Assembly: GCF_031202265.1 (NCBI RefSeq)
Contig: NZ_CP100604.1
Coordinates: forward strand, 3,082,501-3,146,500
Source: Bradyrhizobium sp. Ash2021
GTDB taxonomy: Bacteria; Pseudomonadota; Alphaproteobacteria; Rhizobiales; Xanthobacteraceae
Length of the DNA: 64,000 nucleotides
Direction: 5' to 3'
Shown here: positions 40,301-59,171 of the stretch, in pieces
Layout of the letters: the number at the start of each line of letters is the position of its first letter
Numbering within the stretch: position 1 is the first letter of the stretch
Translations under genes and position numbers: made by a program
The notes under the pieces: generated by a model
Told to the model about the DNA's origin: nothing
Seen by the model: only the letters and a program-made list of their open reading frames with translations
Databases searched by the model: none

Positions 40301-40767
40301 CAATCCTGGGCCTCTGCGACAAGCCCGGCCGCCCGCATTGCTGCGCGCACGATCTCGATATGCGCGCCGCACCGGCACAGATTGTAGCGCAGCGATTCCA
40401 GCACCTCGGCTTCGGAGGGATGCGGGTTACGCGTCAAGAGCGCCTTGGTGGATATGATCATGCCGTTGAGGCAATAGCCGCATTGCGCGGCCTGTTCCTC
40501 GATGAAAGCGGCCTGCACGGGATCGGGATGCTCGCGTGTGCCGAGGCCTTCGAGCGTCACAATGTCGCGTCCGGCGCAGCCTTGAATAGGAATCGCGCAA
40601 GCGCGCGCGGCGATGCCGTCGATCAGCACGGCGCAGGCGCCGCATTCGCCGAGCCCGCAGCCATATTTCGGTCCGTTCAATGCGAGATCGTTGCGCAGCA
40701 CATAGAGCAATGCGGTGTCGGGAGCGGCGTCGACATCATGGACCCTGCCGTTAACGGTCAGGCGCAT
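40300..40767 (-). CDS. nicA: Nicotinate dehydrogenase 2Fe-2S subunit (NicA-like)
   Basis: 155 residues with the two-cluster arrangement of molybdenum hydroxylase small subunits. A plant-type [2Fe-2S] site comes first as CGLGECGAC plus a later Cys. The second cluster is CGYC in AAQCGYCLNGMI, with CRC in YNLCRCGAH. The length is close to P. putida NicA (157 aa). The ATG follows AGGGAG, and a GTATAC-centred palindrome sits within its likely promoter. It would pass electrons from the Mo site of NicB toward the heme domains. The stop shares a base with the nicB start, giving translational coupling. Confidence 0.9.
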   Translation of the reverse strand: MRLTVNGRVHDVDAAPDTALLYVLRNDLALNGPKYGCGLGECGACAVLIDGIAARACAIPIQGCAGRDIVTLEGLGTREHPDPVQAAFIEEQAAQCGYCLNGMIISTKALLTRNPHPSEAEVLESLRYNLCRCGAHIEIVRAAMRAAGLVAEAQD

Positions 40768-40829: not shown

Positions 40830-40857
40830 AGGATAACGTTTGTATACAAACGTGCAA
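40830..40857 (-). promoter_or_regulatory. Predicted nicA promoter
   Basis: Read on the minus strand, TTGCAC (40857-40852) and TATCCT (40835-40830) are separated by 16 bp and resemble sigma70 -35 and -10 boxes upstream of nicA. The 18-bp operator palindrome exactly fills the spacer, as expected for a repressor-controlled promoter. No transcription start has been mapped. Confidence 0.4.
40836..40853. promoter_or_regulatory. Operator palindrome 1 of the nicotinate regulon
   Basis: ACGTTTGTATACAAACGT is an 18-bp perfect palindrome in the 295-bp divergent region between nicA and the hydroxynicotinate reductase gene. The GTATAC core with TTT/AAA flanks recurs in variant form at 40990 and twice at 54140. 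Likely the site of a dimeric repressor; the MarR protein encoded at 48845 is the candidate in this window. Confidence 0.65.
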
Positions 40858-40959
40858 GCCGCCCGTTCCGCGGTGCAGTGCGTTGCCCGCTTTATAAACA
40901 ACGGTGCGAGGCAATTGATTTTTTATTCGGCAATGGCGGTTTTTCGCTTCCCCGACCGC

Positions 40960-40988
40960 TTGACAGGTTTCCAGCCTGCGCGCAGGAT
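40960..40988 (+). promoter_or_regulatory. Predicted promoter of the hydroxynicotinate reductase operon
   Basis: TTGACA (40960-40965), a 17-bp spacer and CAGGAT (40983-40988) resemble a sigma70 promoter with a perfect -35 and a weak -10. The GTTCGTATACGAAC palindrome begins one base after the -10 box and would cover the start site, consistent with repression. Confidence 0.45.
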
Positions 40989-40989
40989 C

Positions 40990-41003
40990 GTTCGTATACG
41001 AAC
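40990..41003. promoter_or_regulatory. Operator palindrome 2 of the nicotinate regulon
   Basis: GTTCGTATACGAAC, a 14-bp perfect palindrome just downstream of the predicted -10 box for the reductase operon. It shares the GTATAC core and TTY/RAA flanks with the sites at 40836 and 54140. It lies 152 bp from operator 1, so each divergent promoter has its own site. Confidence 0.65.
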
Positions 41004-41062
41004 AATATGCCCGGCGGCTGAAAACGGGGTATGATTGAGGCCGCCCGAGAGTAGGCTTGTTC

Positions 41063-42514
41063 ATGACGATCGATGCGACGACGGCCGCCGGTGGCGACAA
41101 GATCCGCTGCGATGCCTGCCCGGTGATGTGCTACATCAAGCCGGGCGCGGCAGGCGCCTGCGACCGCTATGCCAATCACAACGGCGAACTGGTGCGGGTC
41201 GATCCGCATATCGTGCTGGAGCGAACGGTTGAGCACGGTGGCCGTCTGGTGCCGTTTCAGGCCACCGGCGACTGGGACGGCAAGATCGTCCATCAGCCGG
41301 AGGTCTTTGTCACGGCGATCGGGGCAGGCACGACTTACCCTGACTACAAGCCGGCGCCCTTTATCGTTTCCTCGGAGATCGACGGCGTCGACATGGTCAC
41401 GGTCGTGACCGAAGGCATCTTCAGCTATTGCGGCGTCAAGGTGAAGATCGACACCGACCGCTATCTCGGTCCGGAAACCGCGACCGTGCGCGCGCAGGGC
41501 GAAGCGATCGGCCATGTCACGACATCCGAATACGGCTCGCAGATGCTGTCGCTCGGCGGCGTGCATCATCTCACCGGCGGTTCCAAGAAGGAAGGCCGCG
41601 TCACCTGTGACGCGCTGATGGACCTCTCCAATTGCAAGCCGGTCGAGCTCACGATCGACGGCGGCGCCACCGTGGTGGTGCAGGCCGGCTATCCGCCCAT
41701 CGTCAATGGCGTCGCGGAAGAACGCATGCGGGTCGGCTGCGGCTCGGCCACCATCGGCATGTTCGCCAAGCAGTGGCAGGGCAAGGTCGATGAGGTGGTC
41801 GTGGTGGATGACCACATTACCGGCGTCCTCAGCGAACATCAGGCCGGCAAGCTGCTGGATATTCCCGATACCGGGATCAAGATGAAGGGCCGGCGCTCGA
41901 CGCCGGGCCGCTATTTCCAGGTCGCCGAGCCCGGCACCGGCTGGGGCGGCACCAAGATTTCCAATCCGTTGTCGGTGCTCGGCCCGTTCGATCCGAAGGA
42001 GGCGCGGCCGGGCCTCACCATGCTGATGGTCTCCACCACCGGCGAACATGCGGCATATTACGAACTCGACGAGGCGCTGAAGCCGGTCGAAAAGCAGATG
42101 CCGCTGGACCTGAAACTTTCCGTCGAGCGGATTCAGGAAAACTGCGAACCGGCGCTGTGCACGGTGTTGTTCATGGGCGGCGCGGGCGGATCGCTGCGCG
42201 CCGGCGTCACCGACAATCCGGTGCGGCTGACGCGTTCGGTGAAGGACGCGCTGACGCGCGTCACCAGCGGCGGCGCGCCGGTCTATGTCTGGCCGGGCGG
42301 CGGCATCACCTTCATGGTCGACGTCACGCAGATGCCGGCAGGCGCTTTCGGTTACGTTCCGACGCCGGCGTTGGTGGCGCCGATCGAGTTCACGCTCAAA
42401 CTGTCGGATTATGCGGCATTGGGCGGCCATATGGATTATGTGCGTCCGCTGGCGTCGTTGAAGGACAACACCGAAACCCGTCCGATGCCTTACATTCCCG
42501 GGCGTCGCGCATGA
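41063..42514 (+). CDS. hnr: 6-hydroxynicotinate reductase
   Basis: A 483-residue protein that I recognise as the proteobacterial counterpart of Eubacterium barkeri Hnr, which reduces 6-hydroxynicotinate to 1,4,5,6-tetrahydro-6-oxonicotinate using low-potential electrons. The N-terminus has a cysteine cluster CDACPVMC (C16, C19, C23) plus C33, suitable for Fe-S binding; further cysteines occur at 123, 182, 191, 226, 361 and 366. The E. barkeri enzyme carries covalent flavin, one [2Fe-2S] and two [4Fe-4S] clusters. A GGAT sequence at 200-203 partly resembles an ApbE flavinylation site. The ATG at 41063 is preferred to an in-frame TTG at 41057. The stop overlaps the UPF0280 gene (ATGA). Identification rests on recalled similarity plus the enamidase and nicAB neighbours. 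Confidence 0.85.
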   Translation: MTIDATTAAGGDKIRCDACPVMCYIKPGAAGACDRYANHNGELVRVDPHIVLERTVEHGGRLVPFQATGDWDGKIVHQPEVFVTAIGAGTTYPDYKPAPFIVSSEIDGVDMVTVVTEGIFSYCGVKVKIDTDRYLGPETATVRAQGEAIGHVTTSEYGSQMLSLGGVHHLTGGSKKEGRVTCDALMDLSNCKPVELTIDGGATVVVQAGYPPIVNGVAEERMRVGCGSATIGMFAKQWQGKVDEVVVVDDHITGVLSEHQAGKLLDIPDTGIKMKGRRSTPGRYFQVAEPGTGWGGTKISNPLSVLGPFDPKEARPGLTMLMVSTTGEHAAYYELDEALKPVEKQMPLDLKLSVERIQENCEPALCTVLFMGGAGGSLRAGVTDNPVRLTRSVKDALTRVTSGGAPVYVWPGGGITFMVDVTQMPAGAFGYVPTPALVAPIEFTLKLSDYAALGGHMDYVRPLASLKDNTETRPMPYIPGRRA

Positions 42515-43419
42515 AACGGCTGCCGCAAATCGCGCTTCTTCCCGACGGCAAGCGGCTGCATTTGCAGGACGGTCCGATTGATCTGATCGTCGAGGCGAAA
42601 GGCAACGACGCGGATGTTGGTGCGGCTTACGAGGCCGCGGCGCGGCGCTTCCCCGGCTTGCTGGATGAACTCTGCGCCGAGCTTTCGGAATTGCGCAGCG
42701 CGGCCGATCCGGCGCGATGCTCGCTGAAAGGCGTCGTCGCGCGCCGCATGCATGCGGCGGTCGCGCCATTTGCGGCCGATTGCTTCATCACGCCGATGGC
42801 GGCGGTGGCTGGCAGCGTGGCGGAAGAGATTCTCGGCGCGATGCAGGGCGCAGCACGGCTCGATCGCGCTTACGTCAATAATGGTGGCGATATCGCGCTG
42901 CATCTGGCCGAAGGCGAACAGTTCACGGTGGGCCTAATGGACCGTCCGGACCGGCATGGATTGCTGCGGACGATGGTCATCGAGGCTGACGATTGCATCC
43001 GGGGCGTCGCGACCAGCGGACGCCACGGCCGCAGCTTCTCGCTCGGCATTGCCGACGCCGTCACCGTGCTGGCGCGAACGGCGTCCCATGCGGATGCCGC
43101 CGCGACCGTCATCGCCAATGCCGTCGATCTGCCCGGGCATCCCGCGATCGTCCGCTGTCCAGCCGATGCGTTGCAGCCGGACAGCGATCTCGGTGCGCGG
43201 CTCGTCACCCGGGACGTCGGAAGGCTGTCGAACGATGAGATCGAGGACGCGCTCGCGGCGGGTGCACGGTGCGCGCGCCAAGCGCTCGTGGCAGGATTGA
43301 TCGAGGGTGCAGCCTTGCGGCTACTCGGCGAAATCGTCGTGGTGGGGGTGACGGGGACCCCGACGCAGGGATCGCAAGCGCTTCACAACCAGACGATAGA
43401 AAGGACGATGCATGCTTGA
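42511..43419 (+). CDS. UPF0280 family protein, ApbE-like fold; candidate flavin transferase
   Basis: A 302-residue protein whose ATG overlaps the reductase stop as ATGA. Segments such as AAVAGSVAEEIL, YVNNGGDIALHL, GVATSGRHGRSFSLGIADAV and the following TVLA mark the UPF0280 family. That family shares the fold superfamily of ApbE, the FAD:protein FMN transferase. The NNGGDI and ATSG-type motifs parallel the NxGGD and TSG(D) motifs of ApbE. No substrate has been assigned to UPF0280 that I know of. Because the E. barkeri reductase carries covalent flavin, tight coupling to hnr makes a dedicated flavinylation role an attractive inference. Confidence 0.85.
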   Translation: MKRLPQIALLPDGKRLHLQDGPIDLIVEAKGNDADVGAAYEAAARRFPGLLDELCAELSELRSAADPARCSLKGVVARRMHAAVAPFAADCFITPMAAVAGSVAEEILGAMQGAARLDRAYVNNGGDIALHLAEGEQFTVGLMDRPDRHGLLRTMVIEADDCIRGVATSGRHGRSFSLGIADAVTVLARTASHADAAATVIANAVDLPGHPAIVRCPADALQPDSDLGARLVTRDVGRLSNDEIEDALAAGARCARQALVAGLIEGAALRLLGEIVVVGVTGTPTQGSQALHNQTIERTMHA

Positions 43420-44026
43420 TCGGGGAACAGGGCTGACAGGGATGAGCGCGATCATTCGCAAAATCGTCACGGTGGTCGAGGAAACCCATCTGGAGATGGG
43501 GCAGAAGATTTTGCCGCCGACCCGGCGTGCGGCGGCGATTGCCGTGATCGAAAACCCGTTTGCCGGAAAATATGTCGAGGACCTCTCGCCGCTGATCGCG
43601 ATCGGCGAGGAACTCGGCGAATTGCTGTCGAAGAGGGCAGTGGCGGCGCTCGGGATCGACGGCGCCAAGGCGCAAAGCTACGGCAAGGCCGCCGCGGTCG
43701 GCGAAAACGGTGAACTCGAGCATGCGGCCGCGATCTTGCATCCGAAGATGGGCGCCCCGGTGCGCAAAGTGCTGAGCAAGGGTGCTGCGCTAATTCCGTC
43801 GTCGAAGAAGCGCAGCGGCCCGGGAACCACGCTGGATATTCCGCTCGGGCACAAGGATGCGGCGTTCGTGCGCAGCCATTTCGATGGCATGGAGGTGCAG
43901 ATCAACGATGCGCCGCGCGCCAATGAAATCATGGTCGCGGTCGCGGTGACCGACAGCGGCCGGCCGCTGCCGCGGGTCGGCGGGCTCACGATTTCTGAAG
44001 TCAAGGGCGAAGACGGTTTGAGATAA
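43412..44026 (+). CDS. Amino-acid-synthesis/DUF1185 family protein
   Basis: A 204-residue protein starting inside the last codons of the UPF0280 gene (8-nt overlap), with AAGGA 7 nt upstream. Segments IRKIVTVVEETHLEMG, RAAAIAVIENPFAGKYVEDL, HPKMGAPVRKVL and DIPLGHKDAAFVRSHFDGME are characteristic of the AA_synth (PF06684) family. Its biochemical role is not established as far as I know. The overlapping arrangement hnr-UPF0280-DUF1185 suggests that the three products act together, perhaps in maturation or turnover of the reductase or a later ring-derived intermediate. Confidence 0.85.
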   Translation: MLDRGTGLTGMSAIIRKIVTVVEETHLEMGQKILPPTRRAAAIAVIENPFAGKYVEDLSPLIAIGEELGELLSKRAVAALGIDGAKAQSYGKAAAVGENGELEHAAAILHPKMGAPVRKVLSKGAALIPSSKKRSGPGTTLDIPLGHKDAAFVRSHFDGMEVQINDAPRANEIMVAVAVTDSGRPLPRVGGLTISEVKGEDGLR

Positions 44027-44051
44027 TTCTCTGTAACATTGGAGGTTGGGT

Positions 44052-45254
44052 ATGCGACGGAGTTATTTGCTGGGAGCGGGATTGGCGATCATGGTCGCCG
44101 GCATGGCCAATACCGCCGTGGCCCAAAGCGAAATCAAGATCGGCGAAATCAACAGCTATTCGCTGTTGCCCGCGTTCACCGAGCCCTATCGCAAGGGCTG
44201 GCAGCTCGCGGTCGAGGAGATCAACGCCGCGGGCGGCATCAACGGCAAAAAACTCGTCGTCGTCTCCAAGGATGACGGCGGCAAGCCGGCCGACGCGCAG
44301 ACCGCCGCCAACGAGCTGGTATCGAGCGAAAACGTAGCGATGCTGACCGGCACGTTCCTGTCCAATATCGGTCTCGCCGTCAGCGATTTTGCCAATCAGA
44401 AGAAGGTATTTTTCCTCGCGGCCGAGCCTTTGACCGACGCCATCACCTGGGCCAAGGGCAACCGCTACACCTTCCGCCTCCGGCCCTCCAATTACATGCA
44501 GGCGGCGATGTTGGTGGAAGAGGCGGCGAAATTACCGGCCAAACGCTGGGCAACGATTGCGCCGAATTATGAATACGGCCAGTCGGCGGTCGCGGTATTC
44601 AAGAAGCTCATGTCGGAAAAGCGCCCCGACATCCAGTGGGTTGACGAGCAGTGGCCGCCGCAGGGCAAGATCGATGCGGGTCCGGTAGTGCAGGCGCTTG
44701 CCGCCGCCAATCCCGAGGCGATCCTCAACGTCACCTTCGGCGCCGATCTCGTCAAATTCGTGCGTGAAGGCAACACCCGCGGCCTGTTCAAGGATCGCGC
44801 GGTGGTGAGTTTCCTGACCGGCGAACCGGAATATCTCGATCCGCTGAAGGAGGAGACGCCGGACGGCTGGATCGTGACCGGCTATCCCTGGTACTCGATC
44901 AAGACGCCGGAGCATGACGCGTTCCTGAAGGCCTATCAAGCCAAGTACAACGACTATCCGCGGCTCGGCTCGATCGTCGGCTACCAGACCATCAAGTCGG
45001 CGGCGGCGATCCTTGCCAAAGCGAATTCGACCGATCCGGAAAAGCTGATCGCAGCGACGGAGGGATTGTCGGTGCCGTCGCCGCTCGGCGAGATCACCTT
45101 CCGCAAGATCGACCATCAGTCCACGCTCGGCGCTTACGTCGGCAAGACCGCGGTGAAGGACGGCAAGGGCGTGATGGTGGATTCGGTCTACCGAAAGGGT
45201 TCCGACTATCTGCCTGGTGATGCCGAAGTCGAAAAGCTTCGTCCGAAGGAGTGA
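44052..45254 (+). CDS. ABC transporter substrate-binding protein, branched-chain amino acid type
   Basis: A 400-residue Peripla_BP_6 protein with a textbook GGAGG ribosome site, a basic n-region (MRRSYLL) and a signal peptide cleaved near TAVAQSE. The mature start EIKIGEINSYSLLPAFTEPY is typical. It precedes fused permease and two ATPase genes (45447-48822), forming a complete Liv-type importer. Location between the hydroxynicotinate reductase operon and a MarR regulator suggests that nicotinate or another pyridine carboxylate is the ligand (inference). A hairpin repeat separates it from the permease gene. Confidence 0.92.
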   Translation: MRRSYLLGAGLAIMVAGMANTAVAQSEIKIGEINSYSLLPAFTEPYRKGWQLAVEEINAAGGINGKKLVVVSKDDGGKPADAQTAANELVSSENVAMLTGTFLSNIGLAVSDFANQKKVFFLAAEPLTDAITWAKGNRYTFRLRPSNYMQAAMLVEEAAKLPAKRWATIAPNYEYGQSAVAVFKKLMSEKRPDIQWVDEQWPPQGKIDAGPVVQALAAANPEAILNVTFGADLVKFVREGNTRGLFKDRAVVSFLTGEPEYLDPLKEETPDGWIVTGYPWYSIKTPEHDAFLKAYQAKYNDYPRLGSIVGYQTIKSAAAILAKANSTDPEKLIAATEGLSVPSPLGEITFRKIDHQSTLGAYVGKTAVKDGKGVMVDSVYRKGSDYLPGDAEVEKLRPKE

Positions 45255-45259
45255 GACCT

Positions 45260-45395
45260 ACCTCTCCCGAAGGGAGAGGTCGAATTTAGAGCGCAGCGAA
45301 AAATTCGGGTGAGGGGTTTTGATCTATCGTTGGTCCGTAACCCCTCACCCGGATCGCTTGCGCGATCCGACCTCTCCCTATGGGAGAGGTGAAGT
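45260..45395. repeat. Family A intergenic hairpin repeat, copy A4
   Basis: CTACCTCTCCCGAAGGGAGAGGTCG is itself a hairpin and pairs with CGACCTCTCCCTATGGGAGAGGTG at the other end. Inner arms are GGGTGAGGGGTT and AACCCCTCACCC. It lies inside the transporter operon between the binding-protein and permease genes, where it could stabilise the upstream mRNA or attenuate downstream transcription. Confidence 0.82.
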
Positions 45396-45446
45396 AAACG
45401 CACTGCATTTTGGCATCTCATTGGATGCCCCTAACCCGGATCGCCC

Positions 45447-47333
45447 ATGGCCTTTTACTTCGTTCAGTTCCTGACTGGTCTGGCCAGCGCGGCGTCGCTG
45501 TTTCTGGTCGCGTCAGGCCTGTCGATCATTTTCGGCGTGACGCGGATCGTCAATTTCGCCCATGGCGCGTTCTACATGCTCGGCGCCTATGTCGCGTTCA
45601 CGCTGACCGAACGGCTTTCCGGCGCGTTTGGATTTTGGGGCGGCATGGTCGTCGCGGCGCTCGTCGTGGCCGCGATCGGCGTGCTGGTCGAGATGGTGCT
45701 GCTGCGGCGGATCTATCACGCGCCGGAGCTGTTTCAGTTGCTCGCGACCTTCGGCCTGACCTTGATGGTCGAGGATCTTGTGGTGTTGATCTGGGGACCG
45801 GAGGATCTGCTCGGCCGCCGCGCGCCGGGCTTCAAGGGCGCGGTCGATTTCTTCGGCCAGAACATTCCGAGTTACGATCTGTTTCTGATCGCGCTCAGCC
45901 CGGTCGTGCTGGGATTGCTGTGGCTGATGTTCCAGCGCACGCGCTGGGGCGTGCTGGTTCGCGCCGCGACGCAGGACCGCGACATGGTGGCGGCGCTCGG
46001 CGTCAATCAGAAATGGCTGTTCACCAGCGTGTTTGCGGTCGGCGTATTTCTCGCCGCCCTCGGCGGCGCGCTGCAGATTCCGCGTGATGCCGTGCATCAC
46101 GCGCTGGACCTGCGCATCATCGTCGATGTCTTCGTCGTGGTGGTGATCGGCGGCCTCGGCAGCATCATCGGCGCTTTCGTGGCCGCCGTGCTGGTGTCGG
46201 AACTCAACGCCTTCGGCATCCTGATCTTCCCGAAAATATCGATCATCCTGGTGTTCCTGGTGATGGCCGTGGTGCTGATCGTGCGGCCGTGGGGGCTGTT
46301 CGGCAAAGCCGAGGCGCCGGCGCGCCGCACGCCGGGTCTGACCGTCAATCCCTGGCGTCCGCTCGGCCCGGGCGAACGATGGGCCGCGGTGGCTGCGCTG
46401 ATCGCAGCGGCAGCGCTGCCGTTCGTCAGCGGCAACTACGCGCTGACCGTCGGTTCCGAGATCGCGATCTTCGTGATCTTTGCGGCCAGCCTGCATTTCC
46501 TGATGTCGGTCGGCGGGCTCGCCTCGTTCGGCCATGCCGCCTATTTCGGGCTCGGCGCCTATGGCGTCGCCTTCCTCGCCAAGATGGCGGGACTGCCGAT
46601 GATCGTCTCGCTTCTGCTCGGCCCGCTGCTCGGATGTCTTGGGGCTGCGGTGTTCGGCTTCTTCGCCGTGCAATTGTCCGGCGTCTATTTCGCGATGCTG
46701 ACGCTGGCGTTTGCGCAGATCGTCTGGTCGATCGCGTTCCAATGGGTCGCGGTCACCGGCGGCGACAACGGCATTTTGGGCGTTTGGCCGGAGAAATGGG
46801 CGGCGAGCCCGTCGCATTTTTACTGGCTCTCGCTTGGGATCGCGGCATTGGCGGTGGCGGTGCTGCGGATCATCGTGTTCTCGCCATTCGGCTTTGCGCT
46901 ACGCGCGACGCGGGATTCGCCGCTGCGCAGTGAAGCCGTCGGCATCAACGGCAAGCGCATCCAGTGGACCGCCTTTGTGATCGCCGGCACCGTCGCCGGT
47001 GTCGCCGGCGCGCTGTTTGCGTACCTCAAGGGCAGCGTCTTCCCCGACAGCCTCGGCATATCGCTCTCGGTCGATGCACTGGTCATGGTGCTGCTCGGCG
47101 GCGTCGAAACCGTCTCCGGCGCGGTCGTCGGCGCCATCGTCTACAAGGCGCTGAATATCTGGCTGGTGAGTCAGACCGATCTCTCCAAGCTGGTGCTTGG
47201 CGGCTTCATCGTCCTGATCGTGGTGGCTTTCCCCAAGGGCATCGTCGGCATGCTGGAGACGATCAGGAATCGCCGTCGTCCTTCTTCACCAAAGACTGCA
47301 CTGGTCACCTCGCGCATCGAGACCGCCGAATGA
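45447..47333 (+). CDS. Fused branched-chain-type ABC permease (LivH-LivM in one chain)
   Basis: A 628-residue membrane protein joining the two usual permeases. Residues 1-290 are LivH-like (SGLSIIFGVTRIVNFAHGAF, and TQDRDMVAALGVNQKWL as coupling segment). Residues 300-620 are LivM-like (GLASFGHAAYFGLGAYGVAF, and RDSPLRSEAVGINGKRI as coupling segment). Separate LivH and LivM are about 290-340 aa each, so this is a clean fusion. The upstream ribosome site is weak. It overlaps livG by ATGA. Confidence 0.92.
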   Translation: MAFYFVQFLTGLASAASLFLVASGLSIIFGVTRIVNFAHGAFYMLGAYVAFTLTERLSGAFGFWGGMVVAALVVAAIGVLVEMVLLRRIYHAPELFQLLATFGLTLMVEDLVVLIWGPEDLLGRRAPGFKGAVDFFGQNIPSYDLFLIALSPVVLGLLWLMFQRTRWGVLVRAATQDRDMVAALGVNQKWLFTSVFAVGVFLAALGGALQIPRDAVHHALDLRIIVDVFVVVVIGGLGSIIGAFVAAVLVSELNAFGILIFPKISIILVFLVMAVVLIVRPWGLFGKAEAPARRTPGLTVNPWRPLGPGERWAAVAALIAAAALPFVSGNYALTVGSEIAIFVIFAASLHFLMSVGGLASFGHAAYFGLGAYGVAFLAKMAGLPMIVSLLLGPLLGCLGAAVFGFFAVQLSGVYFAMLTLAFAQIVWSIAFQWVAVTGGDNGILGVWPEKWAASPSHFYWLSLGIAALAVAVLRIIVFSPFGFALRATRDSPLRSEAVGINGKRIQWTAFVIAGTVAGVAGALFAYLKGSVFPDSLGISLSVDALVMVLLGGVETVSGAVVGAIVYKALNIWLVSQTDLSKLVLGGFIVLIVVAFPKGIVGMLETIRNRRRPSSPKTALVTSRIETAE

Positions 47334-48121
47334 GCATGGTCCCTACATTGCTGTCGGTCGATGGGCTGACGAAGTCCTATGGCGGCGTGCATGCCGTGCG
47401 CGGCGTCTCGTTCGAACTGCGGGCGGGCGAAATCCTGGCGCTGATCGGCCCCAACGGCGCCGGCAAGAGCACCTGCTTCGACATGCTCAACGGCCAGAAC
47501 ATTCCCGATAGCGGCCGGATCAATCTGCTGGGCGAGGATACCGCGGGCAAGAAGCCACGCGCGATCTGGCGGCTCGGCGTCGGCCGCACTTTTCAGATCA
47601 CCGCGACGTTCCCGACCATGACGGTGCGCGAGAATGTCCAGGTTGCGCTGGTGTCCTATGGCCGGCAATTGTTCAATCTCTGGACCTCGACGGCGCATTA
47701 CGCGCGGGACGAGGCCGGACGGCTACTGGATCTCGTCGGCATGGGTGCCTACGCCGAGCGCCCCTGCGGCGAACTCGCCTATGGCGATCTCAAGCGGCTC
47801 GAGCTCGCGGTGGCGCTGGCCAATCAGCCGAAACTGCTGCTGATGGACGAGCCGACCGCCGGCATGGCGCCGCGCGAGCGCATCGAATTGATGCGGCTCA
47901 CCGCGCGCATCGCCCGCGAGCAGTCGATCGGCGTTCTCTTCACCGAACACGACATGGATGTGGTGTTCGAGCACGCCGACCGCATCCTGGTGCTCAATCG
48001 CGGTACATTGATCGCCGAGGGATCGCCGGAAGAAGTCCGCGGCAATCCACAAGTCCGCGCCATCTATCTCGGCGAGGGTCTGGTCTACGACGCCCGCCAC
48101 CGCGAGGGAGCGGGCGCATGA
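47330..48121 (+). CDS. livG: Branched-chain-type ABC transporter ATP-binding protein, LivG
   Basis: 263 residues from the ATG in the ATGA overlap with the permease; an ATG 6 nt downstream is an alternative. Walker A GPNGAGKST, the LivG-typical RTFQITATFPTMTVRENV segment, Walker B LLMDEPTAGM and switch His in FTEHDMDVVFEHAD are all present. The signature loop is atypical, reading CGELAYGDLKRLE in place of LSxGxxR. It energises the Liv-type importer. Confidence 0.92.
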   Translation: MSMVPTLLSVDGLTKSYGGVHAVRGVSFELRAGEILALIGPNGAGKSTCFDMLNGQNIPDSGRINLLGEDTAGKKPRAIWRLGVGRTFQITATFPTMTVRENVQVALVSYGRQLFNLWTSTAHYARDEAGRLLDLVGMGAYAERPCGELAYGDLKRLELAVALANQPKLLLMDEPTAGMAPRERIELMRLTARIAREQSIGVLFTEHDMDVVFEHADRILVLNRGTLIAEGSPEEVRGNPQVRAIYLGEGLVYDARHREGAGA

Positions 48122-48822
48122 AGCTTTCAGTCAAAGACCTCAACAGCTTTTATGGCCCCGCGCATATTCTGTTCGATATCGGACTTGAAGTCGGCGATGG
48201 CGAGGTGGTCGCACTGCTCGGGCGCAACGGCGCCGGCAAGTCGACGACCTTCCGCTCCATCGTCGGCCTGGTCGCGAACCGCACCGGCCGCATCCTGTTC
48301 GAAGGCAAGGACGTATCGGCCGAGCCGACGCATGCGATCGTGCGCGGCGGGCTCGGCTATGTGCCGGAAGAGCGCCGTATCTTCACCGATCTGACGGTCG
48401 AGGAAAATCTCGAAGTCGGCCGGCAACCGAAGCGGCCGAATGCGCCGTATTGGACTCGGGAAAAGCTGTTCACGCTGTTTCCGAACCTCGGCGAAATGCG
48501 CGGCCGCGCGGGCGGGCGCATGAGCGGCGGCGAGCAACAGATGCTGACGATCGCGCGCACGCTGATGGGAAATCCGTCGCTGGTGCTGCTCGACGAGCCG
48601 TCGGAGGGGCTGTCGCCAAAAATCGTCGAGCAGATGGTCGACGCCATCCTGGCCATGAAGAAAGAGGGCGTCAGCATCGTGGTATCCGAGCAGAATTTGC
48701 ACTTCGCGCGCCTGATTTCCGACCGCGCCTACATCATCGAGCGCGGCAAGATCTGTTTCGGCGGCACGATGAGCGAACTCGACGCGCGTCCGGATATCCG
48801 CGACGCGCATCTGTCGCTGTGA
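48118..48822 (+). CDS. livF: Branched-chain-type ABC transporter ATP-binding protein, LivF
   Basis: 234 residues with Walker A GRNGAGKST, LGYVPEERRIFTDLTVEENL typical of LivF, signature MSGGEQQML and Walker B VLLDEPSEGLSP. It starts in an ATGA overlap with livG and ends the transporter operon. The MarR gene follows 22 nt later on the same strand. Confidence 0.93.
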   Translation: MKLSVKDLNSFYGPAHILFDIGLEVGDGEVVALLGRNGAGKSTTFRSIVGLVANRTGRILFEGKDVSAEPTHAIVRGGLGYVPEERRIFTDLTVEENLEVGRQPKRPNAPYWTREKLFTLFPNLGEMRGRAGGRMSGGEQQMLTIARTLMGNPSLVLLDEPSEGLSPKIVEQMVDAILAMKKEGVSIVVSEQNLHFARLISDRAYIIERGKICFGGTMSELDARPDIRDAHLSL

Positions 48823-48844
48823 CCGGCGCAGGACAAGAATAGGG

Positions 48845-49312
48845 ATGGGAAACGCCATGGCCAGAAATGGTTCGCCCAAGCGAAGCGTCAAGCCGTCAAA
48901 GCCGTCCTACATCCTGGACGAGCAGATCGGCTTCATCCTGCGCCAGGTGTGGCAACGCCACGCCATGATCTTCGCCCGCGACATCGGCATCAACCTGACG
49001 CCGACGCAATGGGCGGCGCTGGCAAAATTGACCGAGACCGGGCCATGCTCGCAAAACCTGCTCGGACGGCTGACAGCAATGGACGTCGCCACCATCAAGG
49101 GCGTGATCGACCGCCTCACCGCGCGCGGCCTGACCGAGACCAGCCCCGATCCCGAAGACGGCCGGCGCTTGCTGGTGAGTCTGACGCGCGCCGGCCAGCA
49201 GCTGGCCGAAAAAGCTGCGCCGAACGCACTGGCGATCACCAAGGAGACGCTGGCGCCGCTCGACGCCAGGGAGCGCGAGACGCTGATGGGATTGCTGAAC
49301 AAGCTGCGGTGA
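48845..49312 (+). CDS. MarR family transcriptional regulator; candidate nicotinate-regulon repressor
   Basis: A 155-residue MarR protein with a basic N-terminal tail (RNGSPKRSVKPSKPS). The helix-turn-helix and wing read LTPTQWAALAKLTETGPCSQ, LLGRLTAMDVATIKGVIDRL, then SPDPEDGRRLLVSLT. MarR-type repressors control nicotinate catabolism in Pseudomonas (NicR) and Bordetella (BpsR), where 6-hydroxynicotinate is the inducer. This is the only regulator within the nicotinate island, so it is the natural candidate for binding the GTATAC palindromes at 40836, 40990 and 54140. That link is inference; GTATAC-type sites are also common for GntR regulators. A second ATG at 48857 is possible. Confidence 0.88.
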   Translation: MGNAMARNGSPKRSVKPSKPSYILDEQIGFILRQVWQRHAMIFARDIGINLTPTQWAALAKLTETGPCSQNLLGRLTAMDVATIKGVIDRLTARGLTETSPDPEDGRRLLVSLTRAGQQLAEKAAPNALAITKETLAPLDARERETLMGLLNKLR

Positions 49313-49374
49313 CAGGGCGCGTGCTTCATTCAGCTTGAATTGCTGTCATGTTGCAATGCCGCGCAGAACTCGCG

Positions 49375-50049
49375 CTATTCCGCGAGGCCGAACCCGAGTG
49401 CGATGAGCCCCACCAGAATGAGGCTGACGGCCCAGGATGAATCCAGATTGAACCAGCTCCGCGATACGAATTTGAGGCCAAGATAACGGTAGACCAGCCA
49501 CGCCAGGAATCCGCCGGCGGCGATCATCGTGCTGGTGTGAACGATGGAGACGAGCGCCGCCATACCGAGATTGCCATTGATGATGGTCCCGACGGCCTCG
49601 TGGCCCTTATCCAGGTCGGCTTCCCGGCAGAGCCCGAGATAGATCGGCACCAGCATCAGTCCCGCACCGTGGGCGATTGCGACCGCGAAGGACCAAAGTC
49701 CCAGTTGCGTCGGTGATATTCGCGCCAGTGCCCGCGGATGGCGCCGATCGACAAGCCGAAAGATACCGAACCCGATGACGAGGAGGCTGGCGCCGATCTG
49801 TATCTGGCGCTGCCATTCGACGAGGGCGACCAGCAGCGCGAAGGGAAGGATCACCAGCAGCATCGCGAGCAGATGGCCCGCCGCCAGCGGCCCAAGCGCG
49901 GCCACCAGCGCACGCGGACTCCTCTCCATCAATCCGGCCGATACGGCGAGCGGCCACCCCATTCCCGGATTTACTCCGTGATAGAGGCCGCTCGCGATGA
50001 CAGCCAGCCAGAGCCAGGCCGGTGTCCAATCGGCCGCGCTCACATTCAA
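49375..50049 (-). CDS. Small polytopic membrane protein coupled to methanethiol oxidase
   Basis: 224 residues with about six hydrophobic helices. I do not recognise a named family. An early SGLYHGVNPGMGWPLAVSAG motif carries a membrane His and resembles the HGxxP motifs of metal or sulfur-compound exporter families (UreH/NicO-like, TauE-like), but the match is weak. The ATG overlaps the stop of the upstream SBP56 gene by 4 nt, so the two are translationally coupled. It may therefore serve that enzyme, for example in copper delivery or sulfur-compound transport. That role is speculative. Confidence 0.78.
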   Translation of the reverse strand: MNVSAADWTPAWLWLAVIASGLYHGVNPGMGWPLAVSAGLMERSPRALVAALGPLAAGHLLAMLLVILPFALLVALVEWQRQIQIGASLLVIGFGIFRLVDRRHPRALARISPTQLGLWSFAVAIAHGAGLMLVPIYLGLCREADLDKGHEAVGTIINGNLGMAALVSIVHTSTMIAAGGFLAWLVYRYLGLKFVSRSWFNLDSSWAVSLILVGLIALGFGLAE

Positions 50050-51446
50050 ACCGACGGATAGCAGAACGAATCCGTCGAACAGTCACCGCCGTCGAGCCGG
50101 ATCTGATGCGCCCGGTACCCGTCGGGGAAGTTGACCCAGTAATCCCTGGCCAGCTCGAGCCCGCCGCCCGGGCCTGCATTGGCCATGACCTCGGCGCCCG
50201 GTATTCCACTCGGATAGAACTGGTCGTCCCACGTCGAGTAGAGCGAGTTGGTCCAGTATACGCGCTTGCCATCGCGGCTGATCTCGACCATCTGCGGGCC
50301 GCCGGCAAAGGCCTTGCCGTTCGGATGAGGCGTACGCCGTACAATGCCGCCGATGTGGACCGATCCGGCGAGCTTCGGCTTTCGGGGATCGCTGACATCG
50401 TATTGACGCATCTCGCCGGTGCCCCAGCACGCGACGTAGAGAAACTTGTCATCCATGGACAGGTCGATATCGGATACCAGCGGCGGCACGGCGCCGAAGC
50501 CCTGCAGAAGCGGCGGCAGCTGGTCCTTCGGCGCGGCCTCCGGCGGGATCGTCGCCGTCTTCTCGATGTGAAACTTGCCGCCCTCGCGCCACCAGGTCCA
50601 GATCGAGCCTTCGAGGTTTGTGGTGTCGACCACGACGCCCAGGAAGCCATACTCGCGAACCGGATCATGCGCGGGACGCACTTCCAGCGCCATCTGATGG
50701 TTGGCGCCGAGATCGATGGTCTGGACATTCCGCCGCGCCCGCAGATCCCAGAAGTGGATCCGATGGCCGTATTTGTTCGAGAGCAGATCCTCCGGCACGA
50801 TCCCGTTCTCGAACTGCGGTGGCAACGCCCACTCGCTCGTCACCATGTAGTCGCGCGGCAGATTCCACCAGAAGTCATAGTGCAGTTTCTGGGCGCCACG
50901 ATCGATCTCCCAGCGTCCGAGGACATCGAATGTCTCGCAGTCCATGATGAAGACGCCGGGCGGTCCATCGGTCCCATCCTTGCCGCCGCCACCGAGCGTG
51001 CTGATGTAAATGCCTTCAGGCCCGCAATGGACCGTGTGGGGCCGCGAGTAGCCGGTCTTCTTGAAGATTTCTTCAGGCTCGATGATCTTGCGAATATTCG
51101 CCTTGGTGGGATCCGGCTTCGTATCAACGATGTAAATGCGGGACGACCGCATGCCGGGAATGATGAGGTAGCGGCGCTCGAGGAATGCGTGCCCGGCGAG
51201 CGGCGACAGCGCCGACGAGCAGGCGTTCCATCCGAAATGGTGAAACTCGTCGCCTTTGGTCGGCATTGTCAGTGTGTGGACGACCTGGCTGAAGGTCGGA
51301 GAGTCAGGCTTTGCATCAATCACCGCGAGCGCGTCGGGTTCTGAAAAGTCCGGGCTGAGCAGCAAGGTGTAGGCAAAGCTCTCTGGCGGGGCTTCCATTG
51401 CAAGCTTCGGCGATGCATGAAATGTGGGATCTGGCCTGATCGTCAT
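50046..51446 (-). CDS. mtoX: Selenium-binding protein 56 family / methanethiol oxidase
   Basis: A 466-residue seven-bladed propeller-type SBP56 protein. Recognisable segments include HHFGWNACSSAL, GMRSSRIYIVDTKPDPTKAN, TGYSRPHTVHCGPEGIYIST, KLHYDFWWNLPRDYMVTSEW and YGHRIHFWDLRAR. His residues in these blades form the likely metal site. Bacterial members are copper-dependent methanethiol oxidases producing formaldehyde, sulfide and hydrogen peroxide. The ATG at 51446 has GGGAGG upstream and leaves no signal peptide, unlike some periplasmic MtoX proteins. The second Cys of the human CSSC motif is Ala here. Sulfide dehydrogenase and Sox genes lie about 9 kb away. Confidence 0.9.
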   Translation of the reverse strand: MTIRPDPTFHASPKLAMEAPPESFAYTLLLSPDFSEPDALAVIDAKPDSPTFSQVVHTLTMPTKGDEFHHFGWNACSSALSPLAGHAFLERRYLIIPGMRSSRIYIVDTKPDPTKANIRKIIEPEEIFKKTGYSRPHTVHCGPEGIYISTLGGGGKDGTDGPPGVFIMDCETFDVLGRWEIDRGAQKLHYDFWWNLPRDYMVTSEWALPPQFENGIVPEDLLSNKYGHRIHFWDLRARRNVQTIDLGANHQMALEVRPAHDPVREYGFLGVVVDTTNLEGSIWTWWREGGKFHIEKTATIPPEAAPKDQLPPLLQGFGAVPPLVSDIDLSMDDKFLYVACWGTGEMRQYDVSDPRKPKLAGSVHIGGIVRRTPHPNGKAFAGGPQMVEISRDGKRVYWTNSLYSTWDDQFYPSGIPGAEVMANAGPGGGLELARDYWVNFPDGYRAHQIRLDGGDCSTDSFCYPSV

Positions 51447-51627
51447 CGGACTGCCTCCCTGTTTGCCTTGGTGTGTACCAACACGGCTCAGCGGCATGCA
51501 GCAGCAAAAACTAACCCGGCCCGTTGATTCCTCTTGCGAGTGCCGCCGGCTGGGGTTCGCTTGTGGTCACCATACTCCTCAATGGCATCAGGTGAAAGGA
51601 ACGATGCAGAGGCCAGGCCTGCGACAA

Positions 51628-51745
51628 TCAGCGCACCACGATCTCCGGCACCCGCGTCACCCCTGGCGTGTTGCGGCTGCGTTGCGTCCACACGATGCCG
51701 TCGATGATGTCATGCCGATGCCGGGGAGGTCGCCGAGCTGGATGC
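51628..51745 (-). pseudogene. Frameshifted remnant of a second enamidase 3' end
   Basis: Read on the minus strand, this stretch parallels the last ~110 bp of the intact enamidase gene (52860-52979), roughly 80-85% identical by eye. It would encode QLGDLPGIGMT, then after a one-base deletion (GATGATGTC versus GATGATGGTC on the plus strand) IDGIVWTQRSRNTPGVTRVPE before a stop. The rest of the gene is missing upstream. This is a decayed partial duplication in the same orientation as the functional copy 1.1 kb away. Confidence 0.75.
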
Positions 51746-51885
51746 CACCCGTCCGGGCTGGCGCGCCACCGGGTTTACCAGCGATCGAACGTGAGTGACG
51801 CGGGTCTGTCTTGTGAACGCGATTAGCCGTCCGGTGTCTGATGCTATCGCGCCGCGCTCACGCGTAGCGCTGCTTGCGGGCGCGC

Positions 51886-52023
51886 TCATTCCCTGCGGTC
51901 ATGCTTCGCGCTGCCGACGGCATCATCCGATGGGAATATGCTTTCGTATATCGCGCGGGCCTCGCGGATCAAACGGGTTCGCTCGAGTTCGGATTTCGCG
52001 ACAAAACGGATGACTTCACCCAT
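51886..52023 (-). CDS. 45-residue small hypothetical protein
   Basis: ATG at 52023 with GGAG 6 nt upstream; the product reads MGEVIRFVAKSELERTRLIR, then EARAIYESIFPSDDAVGSAK and HDRRE. I recall very similar short proteins (IxFVPKSExERxRLIREARAxYDSIFP) recurring in Bradyrhizobium genomes. The charged heptad-like pattern suggests a single amphipathic helix. Function unknown. It lies between the enamidase remnant and the intact enamidase gene. Confidence 0.6.
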   Translation of the reverse strand: MGEVIRFVAKSELERTRLIREARAIYESIFPSDDAVGSAKHDRRE

Positions 52024-52210
52024 GGGGTTCTCCAAGGCTGGAAAAACATTCCGCCAACAGCTGGTTCTAAGTCTTCAGAGTTGGAAGACCTACTCCCATC
52101 ACAAGAACTTATTTCTGGATGGGTGGCGCCCTGTGAAAAACCCACCTCTTTTCGGGGGCACCGGAGAAAGAAATCTGTGAGTGTGGGGTGTCGTTTCCGA
52201 TGTAGGCGGG

Positions 52211-52231
52211 CGCGAGGCCGAAGGCCTCGCG
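52211..52231. other. 9-bp stem hairpin in an otherwise empty 331-bp gap
   Basis: CGCGAGGCC-GAA-GGCCTCGCG forms a perfect stem with a three-base loop. It has no T-run on either side, so it is not a classical terminator. The surrounding gap 52024-52354 is less GC-rich than its neighbours and shows no convincing gene. Confidence 0.4.
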
Positions 52232-52354
52232 GCCGATGGGTTCCGATGACCGTGTTCTTACGGGTCGTAATTGGCAAACAGCTTGCGATGGGTGTGTCAG
52301 CTGTTCGGCTTCCGGGCTCTGGATGTGCCGAACTAAGCCATTGGGAGCACGCAA

Positions 52355-52639
52355 ATGAACATACAATCTCGTTTCGAGACAGCGCGCGAAGGTGCAGTAC
52401 GAGAGGTCGCAGTAATTAGTAAGATACTGGCTGATCTTGTTCGCACCGTTCAACTGATCGAATCCGACATCGCAGCCGAAGAAGAGCGCGCCGGGGTTTC
52501 CGACCGATCCGACGCTAAGTATCCGATACTGGCGAGGACGCTGATCGAGCGGCGCGACAATCTCAAGATGACCATTGCCGCCCTTGAACAGCGTCACACC
52601 GAGCGAGCTCGGCCCGCGCAAGCGGCAACCGCGGCTTAA
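52355..52639 (+). CDS. 94-residue hypothetical protein, predicted helical
   Basis: The ATG follows GGGAG. The product (MNIQSRFETAREGAVREVAV, then ISKILADLVRTVQLIESDIA and an Arg/Glu-rich helix) is predicted almost wholly alpha-helical with heptad-like spacing, so it is probably a coiled coil. I recall close relatives as small hypothetical proteins in Bradyrhizobium. A clear hairpin terminator follows its stop, supporting it as a real, separately transcribed gene. No function is known to me. Confidence 0.75.
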   Translation: MNIQSRFETAREGAVREVAVISKILADLVRTVQLIESDIAAEEERAGVSDRSDAKYPILARTLIERRDNLKMTIAALEQRHTERARPAQAATAA

Positions 52640-52648
52640 AGGCACAAA

Positions 52649-52685
52649 AAAGCCGCCGCTGGGGTTGGCTCAGCGGCGGCTTCTT
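52649..52685 (+). terminator. Rho-independent-type terminator after the 94-aa gene
   Basis: AGCCGCCGCTG (52651-52661) and CAGCGGCGGCT (52671-52681) form an 11-bp GC-rich stem with a 9-nt loop. It is preceded by an A-run and followed by TTCTTCC. The stop codon of the 94-residue gene is 10 nt upstream. Confidence 0.8.
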
Positions 52686-52758
52686 CCGTTACGAGTCCCT
52701 ATTGCGGTCCCGTCCCAAGGGGTTACGCGGCGCCAAGACAAAAGCGAAACCGCCGGAG

Positions 52759-52823
52759 GTGGATTGCTTCGCGGAGCCAGTCATCGGGCGCGCATTCGCG
52801 CGACCCGGTGGCTCGCAATGACG
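52759..52823. repeat. Decayed family B repeat, copy B6
   Basis: GTGGATTGCTTCGCGGAG, a GGCGCGCATTCGCGCGACCC block and GGTGGCTCGCAATGACG represent the right half of a family B element, including the CGACCCGGTGGCTC segment seen at 25313 and related to 12061. The left half is absent. Confidence 0.6.
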
Positions 52824-52859
52824 ACCCTGCCGTTTCCTGACATCAAACCGGCGGATGGA

Positions 52860-54056
52860 TCAGTGCCCGACAATCTCCGGCACCCTTGTCGCCGGCGGCG
52901 TGTTGCGGCTGCGCTGGGTGCGGACGATGCCGTCGATGATGGTCATGCCGATGCCGGGGAGGTCACCGAGCTGGACGCTGTGCAAAATGTTCTTGCCGGG
53001 CGAATGCTGCGCCATGTCCATGATCACGAAATCGGCTGAGCGGCCGACCTCGATGATGCCGCAGTCCAGCGCCCGCATCCGCGCGGTGTTGCCGGTGGCG
53101 AGGCAGAAGGCGATTTCGGCAGGCAGATCGCCGAGCGATGACAGCAGCGAGACCATGCGCAGGATTCCGAGCGGCTGCACGCCGGAGCCGGCCGGTGCGT
53201 CGGTGCCGAGAATGACGCGGCTGAGATCGCCCATCTCGCGCGCGGTTCGCAGCGTAAACAGCGCCGAGCGCTCATTGCCGTTGTGAACCAGTTCGAGGCC
53301 GCGCTTGCAGCCTTCGCAGATACAGCGGATCTGGTCATCGGGCAGGGCGGTATGGCCGCCATTAATGTGGCCGATCACGTCGGTATCGGCCTCCAGCACC
53401 ACGTCCTTGTCGATCAGGCCGGAGCCGGGAATTGAAGGTCCGCCGGTATGGATCGTGCTCTGGATGCCGTATTTGCGCGCCCAGCCCACCATTTTCCGCG
53501 CGGTCGGTCCATCCTTCACGCCGCCGAGCCCGACCTCGCCGAGCAGTTTGACGCCGGCTGCGGCCAATTCCTTGAAGTCGTCCTCGACCATTTCGTTTTC
53601 GATCACGGGCGCGCCGGCATGGATTTTCACGCCGCCAGGGCGCAGCGTCCAGAACGAGCGCTGCGCAAAGATCGCCATCGCCTTGACGCCGACGACGTCG
53701 CGCGGACGGCCGGGCATATGAACCTCGCCGGCGGAAATCATCGTGGTGACGCCGCCATGCAGGTAGCTGTCGATCCAGCCGATCTGGTTCTGCCGCGGTG
53801 TCCAGTCGCCGGCGACGGGATGGACGTGGCTGTCGATCAGGCCGGGCGCGACGGTGGTGCCGTTGGCATTGACGGTGGTGGTGGCGTCATCGGTGTTGAC
53901 GTCCTTGAAGCGTCCGATCGCAGTGATTTTTCCATTCTCGGCGACGATCGTGTCGGCGTCGAGGATTGGCTTTTCCATGGCGCCGGAAAGCAACAGCCCG
54001 ATATTGCGGATCACCAGCTTGCTCGGGCCAGCGGTCTGGGGGGCGTCATGGGCCAT
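52860..54056 (-). CDS. ena: Enamidase (1,4,5,6-tetrahydro-6-oxonicotinate amidohydrolase)
   Basis: 398 residues from the ATG behind AAGGA. I recognise close similarity to Eubacterium barkeri enamidase, a bifunctional Fe-Zn amidohydrolase that opens tetrahydro-6-oxonicotinate to ammonia and 2-formylglutarate. The matches include IRNIGLLLSG near the N-terminus, the metal motif DSHVHPVAGDWTPRQ, LHGGVTTMISAGEVHMPGRP, KLLGEVGLGGVK, IHTGGPSIPGSG, GHINGGHTALP, LGTDAPAGSGVQPLGILRM and the terminal QRSRNTPPATRVPEI. All expected metal ligands (HxH, bridging Glu or Lys region, two His, Asp) appear present. It is divergent from a ferredoxin reductase across a double operator shared with nicA and hnr. Confidence 0.92.
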   Translation of the reverse strand: MAHDAPQTAGPSKLVIRNIGLLLSGAMEKPILDADTIVAENGKITAIGRFKDVNTDDATTTVNANGTTVAPGLIDSHVHPVAGDWTPRQNQIGWIDSYLHGGVTTMISAGEVHMPGRPRDVVGVKAMAIFAQRSFWTLRPGGVKIHAGAPVIENEMVEDDFKELAAAGVKLLGEVGLGGVKDGPTARKMVGWARKYGIQSTIHTGGPSIPGSGLIDKDVVLEADTDVIGHINGGHTALPDDQIRCICEGCKRGLELVHNGNERSALFTLRTAREMGDLSRVILGTDAPAGSGVQPLGILRMVSLLSSLGDLPAEIAFCLATGNTARMRALDCGIIEVGRSADFVIMDMAQHSPGKNILHSVQLGDLPGIGMTIIDGIVRTQRSRNTPPATRVPEIVGH

Positions 54057-54115
54057 CACTTTATCCTTCTTGTTCAATGCCTTCGCAGGGCGCTGGCAGC
54101 CATCTTGCGCGCGGC

Positions 54116-54144
54116 TTGACACCGGGATCAAGCCGGATTATTCA
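54116..54144 (+). promoter_or_regulatory. Predicted promoter of the ferredoxin-NADP reductase gene
   Basis: TTGACA (54116-54121), 17 bp and TATTCA (54139-54144) form a sigma70-like promoter upstream of the reductase gene. The double palindrome begins inside its -10 box, so repressor binding would block transcription. The same TTGACA box and operator placement occur at the hnr promoter (40960). Confidence 0.45.
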
Positions 54145-54175
54145 TTCGTATACAAACGAATGTATACGAATGAAT
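54140..54175. promoter_or_regulatory. Double operator of the nicotinate regulon
   Basis: Two 14-bp arms, ATTCATTCGTATAC (54140-54153) and GTATACGAATGAAT (54162-54175), are perfect inverted repeats around an 8-bp spacer. Each arm contains a GTATAC core, 14 bp apart centre to centre, with TTC/RAA-type flanks like the sites at 40836 and 40990. It lies between the divergent enamidase and ferredoxin reductase genes. Confidence 0.7.
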
Positions 54176-59088: not shown

Positions 59089-59171
59089 AGCGCTACCTCT
59101 CGGTCCACGCCGTGACGGGCGTGCGGACATGAAAGCCGTCGATGCACGAATCACTCGTGCATCCAGCGAGA

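Follow-up and report, generated by a model that had tools for sequence, protein, structure and literature searches.

The DNA analysed here is a stretch of 64,000 nucleotides from Bradyrhizobium sp. Ash2021 (hereafter the window). It contains a cluster of genes for nicotinate breakdown, and conserved dyads lie at the promoters of nicA, of hnr and of the enamidase/fpr pair, where we regard them as putative operators with the form RTTYGTRYACRAAY. We hold with good confidence that these genes form one nicotinate-catabolic regulon, in which a MarR-family protein would act at the dyads, 6-hydroxynicotinate would release it and the ferredoxin-NADP(+) reductase Fpr would feed the 6-hydroxynicotinate reductase Hnr. 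The features of the cluster are the following.

36743-40378, minus strand: nicB-like large subunit of nicotinate dehydrogenase (models of the xanthine dehydrogenase family and, for its C-terminal domains, of cytochrome c)
40300-40767, minus strand: nicA-like 2Fe-2S subunit of nicotinate dehydrogenase (Fer2, Fer2_2)
40836-40853, no strand: putative operator O1, nicA side, ACGTTTGTATACAAACGT
40960-40965, plus strand: TTGACA, -35 element of the hnr promoter (followed, after a 17-bp spacer, by CAGGAT at 40983-40988 as candidate -10)
40990-41003, no strand: putative operator O2, hnr side, over the presumed transcription start, GTTCGTATACGAAC
41063-42514, plus strand: hnr, 6-hydroxynicotinate reductase (plasmid-borne annotated relatives, 70-75% identity)
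42511-43419, plus strand: UPF0280-type protein (PRK04334; NF003322, 417 bits, cut-off 290)
43412-44026, plus strand: AA_synth protein (PF06684)
44046-48822, plus strand: branched-chain-type ABC transporter, putative nicotinate uptake (binding protein PF13458)
48845-49312, plus strand: MarR-family regulator, proposed repressor (PF01047)
52860-54065, minus strand: enamidase, ring opening (PDB 2vun ENAMIDASE, E = 1.5e-108, residues 14-397)
54116-54121, plus strand: TTGACA, -35 element of the fpr promoter (followed, after a 17-bp spacer, by TATTCA at 54139-54144 as candidate -10)
54140-54175, no strand: putative operator O3, a 36-bp double dyad between enamidase and fpr
54216-54989, plus strand: fpr, ferredoxin-NADP(+) reductase, cluster-linked paralogue (PDB 6rr3, E = 2.5e-114)

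The order, with some genes identified by eye, is nicB-nicA (minus strand), O1, O2, then hnr, the UPF0280 and AA_synth genes, the transporter and marR (plus strand); after marR come a membrane protein and an SBP56-like gene (minus strand), the enamidase gene (minus strand), O3 and fpr (plus strand). The nicB reading frame as listed overlaps nicA and its true start is probably near 40300; the adjacency of the two genes is conserved. The transporter comprises a binding protein, fused permeases and two ATPases (permease and ATPases recognised by eye), and the family of the protein at 42511-43419 is named UPF0280. The Hnr protein matched no Pfam or NCBIfam model. It has relatives at 60-80% identity in 26 plasmid records, and among the 12 shown seven are named 6-hydroxynicotinate reductase and five carry no feature name; the enzyme would be ferredoxin-dependent. 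Judged by hnr, B. erythrophlei GAS478 is the closest named relative (98%).

Dyads at the nicotinate promoters

The palindromes that the initial annotation placed at 40836 and 40990 were both confirmed, as ACGTTTGTATACAAACGT at 40836-40853 and GTTCGTATACGAAC at 40990-41003, and the 36-bp double inverted repeat claimed between enamidase and fpr is present at 54140-54175; its inverted arms of 14 bp are perfect and enclose an 8-bp spacer, and its two GTATAC centres are 14 bp from each other. The proposed GTATAC core holds at O1-O3 and is not strict, as GTACAC, GTGTAC and GCATAC centres also occur at these promoters. By itself GTATAC is a mildly rare word in the window (five occurrences against 1.34 expected, a count reached by 2 of 100 shuffles), and its fifth occurrence, at 50256, falls inside the SBP56-like reading frame.

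Motif counts in the whole genome (9,704,287 bases, 9.70 Mb) were compared with those of the same pattern read backwards. A genome scan had been proposed as a check of the regulon, and it revealed no scatter: the 12-mer TTYGTATACRAA has exactly three places in the genome, all of them in the nicotinate cluster. The reversed control has two, so the count is not above background and the signal lies in the placement; by our own arithmetic, the chance that three random sites all fall in one given 64-kb window is about 3e-7. Near-matches carry no signal, because with one mismatch TTYGTATACRAA is found in 21 places against 37 for the control (nine of the 21 loci were read in their gene context). The 14-mer RTTHGTATACDAAY has four matches, three in the cluster and a fourth which, from the one-mismatch listing, would be the site at C1:6833641 beside a GntR-FCD gene. 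Elsewhere (G000:C1:2534000-2535500; L135, L008) a haem-oxygenase-like gene and a Fer2 ferredoxin are preceded by three GTATAC within about 265 bp. We did not add this ferredoxin (C1:2534702) to the regulon, since the arms of the nicotinate dyad are absent from its flanks and the three GTATAC are crowded together.

To evaluate conservation we used sets made of Bradyrhizobium and Afipia, mostly closely related Bradyrhizobium, in which named contigs are mixed with unlabelled genomes. The named hnr loci are the best 80 of 319 found, with hnr 87-98% identical among them. The sets overlap and some organisms are probably present twice under two names, so that genus-level counts are not independent. 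Only loci with the N-terminus of both genes present entered the counts for the two intergenic regions, and dyads were scored as matching letters out of 14. All 79 nicA/hnr regions hold two dyads of at least 13/14 that are at least 100 bp apart, and the hnr-side dyad is present in every one (79/79). GTATAC occurs upstream of hnr in 77 of the 80 named loci; the other three have a GTGTAC or GCATAC centre in a dyad that otherwise matches. The 59 enamidase/fpr regions, of which 57 are distinct, all contain at least one dyad of 13/14, and 50 of them contain two (12/14 or better) exactly 14 bp apart.

The placement of the sites relative to TTGACA had been described as alike at hnr and fpr, and this was borne out: TTGACA stands 28 bp before GTATAC at hnr and 26 bp before it at fpr, and relatives keep both spacings. 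With regions set aside that have no GTATAC (three for hnr, five for fpr) or lie too close to the end of a contig, a perfect TTGACA is found at 28 bp in 69 of 73 hnr regions, at 29 bp in three and at 25 bp in one. For fpr, TTGAC stands at 26 bp in 53 of 54 regions, and at least five of the six letters of TTGACA are found at that spacing in 51/52; five more fpr regions show GTACAC or GTGTAC in place of GTATAC. With such spacing the dyad would lie over the presumed start site, a position compatible with a repressor that blocks transcription; we infer that the block would act in the -10/+1 zone.

One might ask whether the conservation of the dyad is simply that of ordinary intergenic sequence recently inherited from a common ancestor. 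Most loci belong to one genus and their hnr genes are very similar, as would be expected under such descent. However, in the aligned regions upstream of hnr the invariant columns are essentially confined to the -35 element (GCTTGACAG), the dyad and a GCGCGCA..AT stretch, with variation elsewhere, and other families have the dyad far more often than shuffled sequence does (see below). We consider this explanation very improbable indeed.

Sixty same-genus genomes were scanned in full. RTTHGTATACDAAY is present in 57 of them, in 128 places against eight for the reversed pattern (our own sums). The three genomes without it are G015 and G041, which both lack hnr, and G045, which has it; hnr of G045 lies at the same contig coordinate as that of a named locus (L074) whose hnr-side dyad has a GTGTAC centre. 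In nine genomes (L137-L140, L142, L144-L147) a RTTHGTATACDAAY site lies between divergent SnoaL-like genes, and these sites were excluded from the regulon because no link to nicotinate was found. Another candidate is a nicotinamidase gene (pncA), whose product has an N-terminus resembling a signal peptide; of the 60 genomes in which pncA was matched, 30 were examined upstream of the gene. A TTYYGTTCGTRYACGAACRGAA-like dyad of 12/14 or better was found in 19 of these 30 loci (L150-L172), roughly 20-50 bp upstream of the match, and all 19 fall among the 23 loci with at least 89% identity. The Ash2021 pncA (L174, G000:C1:186131-186859) has no such upstream dyad; pncA is possibly a regulon member in sister species.

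The MarR protein and the cluster-linked Fpr

The MarR protein encoded in the hnr operon is, judged from sequence, the best candidate for the regulator of the dyad. Its winged-helix domain matches PF01047 (39.1 bits, cut-off 24.6) and its closest structures are 2nnn, 6pcp (E = 1.2e-24) and 6pco, the latter two being BpsR. Of the 80 named hnr loci, 70 contain the gene and the remaining ten stop short of its position. In BpsR the ligand 6-hydroxynicotinate is bound by Tyr15 (to the 6-hydroxy group), His32 (to the ring nitrogen) and Arg26 (to the carboxylate), and His23 also contributes to the pocket (PMC6837509). The corresponding residues here are Y22, F30, R33 and H39, so that three of the four contacts (Tyr, Arg, His) are kept. 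The YFRH pattern is found in all 70 named Bradyrhizobium/Afipia loci in which MarR was found and in 20 of 33 further loci (three of these 20 at genus level: L247, L248, L250); ten others have YHRH and three have other residues. Since these residues are kept, the ligand is likely to be 6-hydroxynicotinate or a close ring compound.

A different regulator, such as a GntR/FCD protein, might instead use the palindromes as its operators. Proteins of that kind can also have GTATAC-centred sites, the fourth RTTHGTATACDAAY match in the genome appears to lie at a GntR-FCD gene, and a GntR-like reading frame (family by eye) is present in the window at 8375-9133. On the other hand, marR accompanies hnr in every named locus that extends far enough, a dyad lies directly upstream of marR in one genome outside the genus (G786) and between divergent nicA and marR in two more (G744, G772), and nicotinate genes are under the control of BpsR and NicR, which are MarR proteins related to this one (PMC6837509, PMC10269826). 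We give a different regulator little chance, and MarR remains our candidate.

The cluster Fpr matches the solved Fpr structures 6rr3, 2qdx and 1a8p over its full length (residues 1/2-257, E <=1e-106). It scores 158.6 bits against the cut-off of 390 for the NCBIfam equivalog PRK10926, and for this reason it was not filed under that narrower group. The genome encodes one other full-length Fpr, 64% identical, and no dyad of 13/14 was found in the 6.8 kb around that gene (L133). We built a tree of 68 rows, having left out four fpr rows (one with a stop, three short). In it a single clade (100/98) of 47 rows holds the cluster Fprs. Sister to this clade (99/91) is the Fpr linked to an enamidase in G786; the next branch is the single Fpr of G518 (98/89), and the housekeeping-type copies, the second Ash2021 copy included, stand outside (99/96). 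The idea that the cluster copy is the only fpr of the genome is ruled out by the second copy and by the tree. Seven copies without nicotinate neighbours also belong to the cluster clade; seven genomes have extra fpr copies (L240-L246), 76-86% identical to the cluster copy and without nicotinate neighbours in the fetched stretch.

A cluster-type fpr (at least 89% identity) is present in 54 of the 60 genomes, all 54 with hnr; four genomes have hnr without it, two have neither gene and none has fpr only. In G025 some 4.6 Mb separate the enamidase-fpr pair from hnr, and in G020 the pair and hnr are on different contigs, with the double dyad kept in both; such pairs away from hnr that retain the operator were read at L136 and L148. 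Genome G031 has a second copy (L239, G031:C1:6212000-6229000; hnr 77%, fpr 82% identity) arranged as an MFS-hnr-fpr-nicA-nicB array on one strand, with fpr directly behind hnr; its Fpr falls in the cluster clade.

Recurrence outside the genus and neighbouring genes

In the class sample of 385 genomes hnr was found in 68, two of these from the genus. Twenty hnr loci, twenty marR loci and twenty genomes with MarR homologues, all outside the genus, were taken further. Of the 20 hnr loci, 14 contain a dyad of at least 13/14, where shuffles give 1.8 (maximum 4); eleven of these 14, on our own reading, have it about 0.85-1.0 kb upstream of nicA. Among the marR loci, scanned with 1.5-kb flanks, five of 20 have such a dyad, against 0.25 in shuffles (maximum 1); that of G786 is perfect (L311, L330).

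At E 1e-40, 19 of the 20 genomes with MarR homologues each yielded a single fpr gene. In 11 of these 19 a dyad lies 116-444 bp upstream of fpr, against 0.065 in shuffles (maximum 2); nine of the 11 belong to the family f174 and the other two are G786 and G772, the dyad in the latter being 116 bp upstream. The nine f174 genomes (L356-L364, L336) have it between fpr and a divergent hydantoinase A gene. The hydantoinase A genes are 82-100% identical to each other (Pfam was run on three). No enamidase was found at E 1e-15 in 10 of 12 f174 genomes, and seven of the nine with the fpr/hydantoinase A arrangement are among those without a detectable one, so hydantoinase A is possibly a replacement ring hydrolase.

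It can be hypothesized that aerobic bacteria with the reductive nicotinate route have repeatedly put a ferredoxin-NADP reductase under the nicotinate repressor, and that operator, fpr and ring hydrolase form a recurrent module. The routes would be a dedicated paralogue divergent from enamidase (Bradyrhizobium/Afipia), an enamidase-linked fpr (G786, a second family), a single genomic fpr captured beside hydantoinase A (f174, a third family), and the case of G772. To us the evidence leaves this evenly balanced; if true, the module couples redox supply to the aerobic use of an anaerobic ring reduction.

Two dyads at other genes were read by eye. In G796 (L369, C1:111589) a perfect dyad, GTTAGTATACAAAC, lies between the end of nicB and a flavin monooxygenase-like reading frame resembling nicC; the oxidative nicotinate route may thus be under the motif as well. 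In G786 (L368, C19:284662) a binding-protein-like reading frame, next to an amidase-like one, has a dyad at its start and is a possible further regulon member in that genome.

Concerning the neighbouring genes, UPF0280 and AA_synth (42511-44026) go with hnr across the class, being near it in 20/20 and 16/20 of the loci outside the genus. UPF0280 may act in flavin attachment to Hnr. The salvage gene pncB (nicotinate phosphoribosyltransferase) lies at 35377-36681, just behind nicB and on the same strand, and a pncB match is present in 55 of the 65 loci with at least 2.5 kb beyond nicB; degradation and salvage of nicotinate may thus share a transcript. After fpr, at 55799-59229, there is a second xanthine-dehydrogenase-type pair (2Fe-2S and Mo subunits), with cytochrome-like reading frames beyond (by eye).

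The proposed regulon and known systems

The shared operator and its conservation in many relatives suggest that the breakdown enzymes and their electron supply are turned on together. A MarR dimer would bind RTTYGTRYACRAAY at nicA, at hnr and in the shared enamidase/fpr region, cover the -10/+1 zone and block transcription. 6-Hydroxynicotinate made by NicAB, or possibly a later ring intermediate, would open the repressor and free all promoters together. Fpr, a paralogue kept for the pathway, would reduce ferredoxin with NADPH and so supply the 6-hydroxynicotinate reductase, a step we propose from the enzymology of Hnr. In this way a ring reduction first known from an anaerobe could run in an aerobic cell. 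The initial annotation had proposed one repressor over the pathway and its electron supply. Comparative footprints support a common type of operator for nicA, hnr, enamidase and fpr; MarR binding, repression, the inducer and the electron route from Fpr to Hnr are predictions. Its inclusion of a ferredoxin reductase agrees with the separation of the cluster Fpr clade from the housekeeping-type copy and with the fpr link outside the genus, but such linkage is not general to hnr clusters.

Several observations weigh against a single regulon with its own Fpr. No fpr was found in the fetched stretch of any of the 20 hnr loci outside the genus, and four same-genus genomes have hnr without the cluster-type gene: G037, G053, which is a one-contig genome, and the fragmented assemblies G033 and G045. 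A dedicated Fpr is therefore not essential, and, as G037 and G053 indicate, a housekeeping Fpr or another donor can serve hnr. No ferredoxin gene was noticed in the cluster by eye, and no systematic search for one was made. The fourth pocket residue of BpsR, His23, is Phe in this MarR. The 17 kb around the second hnr-fpr copy of G031 contain no dyad of at least 13/14, 15 of the 20 marR loci have none of 13/14 within their flanks, and 8 of the 19 fpr genes outside the genus lack one, while 8 of the 11 fpr sites come from one genus. Moreover the loci are mostly from close Bradyrhizobium relatives, some probably entered twice. The 14-mer also has a real background in the 20 genomes (35 places against 24 reversed, our own sums); even so, 11 of the 35 places are at one gene, fpr, and are therefore not due to chance.

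It could also be argued that O3 serves the enamidase only and that fpr is a bystander on its other side. The two genomes of the L247/L248 set speak for this, since upstream of enamidase G037 has a perfect dyad and G053 a 13/14 GCATAC variant though the cluster-type fpr is absent from both. Against it stand the fpr-side TTGAC at fixed spacing in nearly all regions, the pairs that moved as a unit and keep both genes (L136, L148), the dyads beside fpr in f174 and G772, and the position of fpr directly behind hnr in G031. We regard a role in enamidase control alone as improbable, and O3 most probably serves enamidase as well as fpr.

Part of this picture is already known, namely the enzyme cluster (PMC3511419) and the MarR control of nicotinate genes (PMC6837509, PMC10269826). 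MarR proteins repress nic promoters in Bordetella bronchiseptica (BpsR) and Pseudomonas putida (NicR) (PMC6837509, PMC10269826), and our system resembles these in its MarR-type regulator, in three of four BpsR contact residues and in its dyads, as putative operators, at nicotinate promoters. It differs in the change of His23 to Phe, in having a ring-reduction pathway (Hnr, enamidase) instead of the oxidative NicC route, and in the Fpr that the proposed regulon adds. A nicotinate cluster has been reported in Bradyrhizobiaceae SG-6C, B. japonicum USDA110 and Azorhizobium caulinodans, encoding the first three steps, a putative nicotinate ABC transporter and two proteins of unknown function, with an SG-6C Hnr 42% identical to the Eubacterium barkeri enzyme (PMC3511419). 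The enzyme cluster itself is shared with ours; the accessible account describes no operator and no ferredoxin reductase, and in its main text "ferredoxin" has 0 occurrences and regulat* two. Likewise, the accessible parts of the open-licence literature, including PMC6837509, PMC3511419, PMC10269826 and PMC9304392, gave no description of the operator or of fpr with nicotinate genes in Bradyrhizobium.

The motif could be used across the Alphaproteobacteria to find missing nicotinate genes such as nicotinamidases, hydantoinases and transporters. To our knowledge, the low-potential electron supply to 6-hydroxynicotinate reductase in aerobic bacteria is not settled, and the operator evidence names fpr (54216-54989) as the candidate gene for it in this lineage. 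The closest biochemical parallel concerns nicotinate fermentation in Eubacterium barkeri, which shares with our cluster the 6-hydroxynicotinate reductase, a ferredoxin-using enzyme in that organism (EC 1.3.7.1), and the enamidase, whose structure 2vun is from the same species. Our system differs from it in that the Mo dehydrogenase carries cytochrome c domains and that Fpr is the likely source of reduced ferredoxin.

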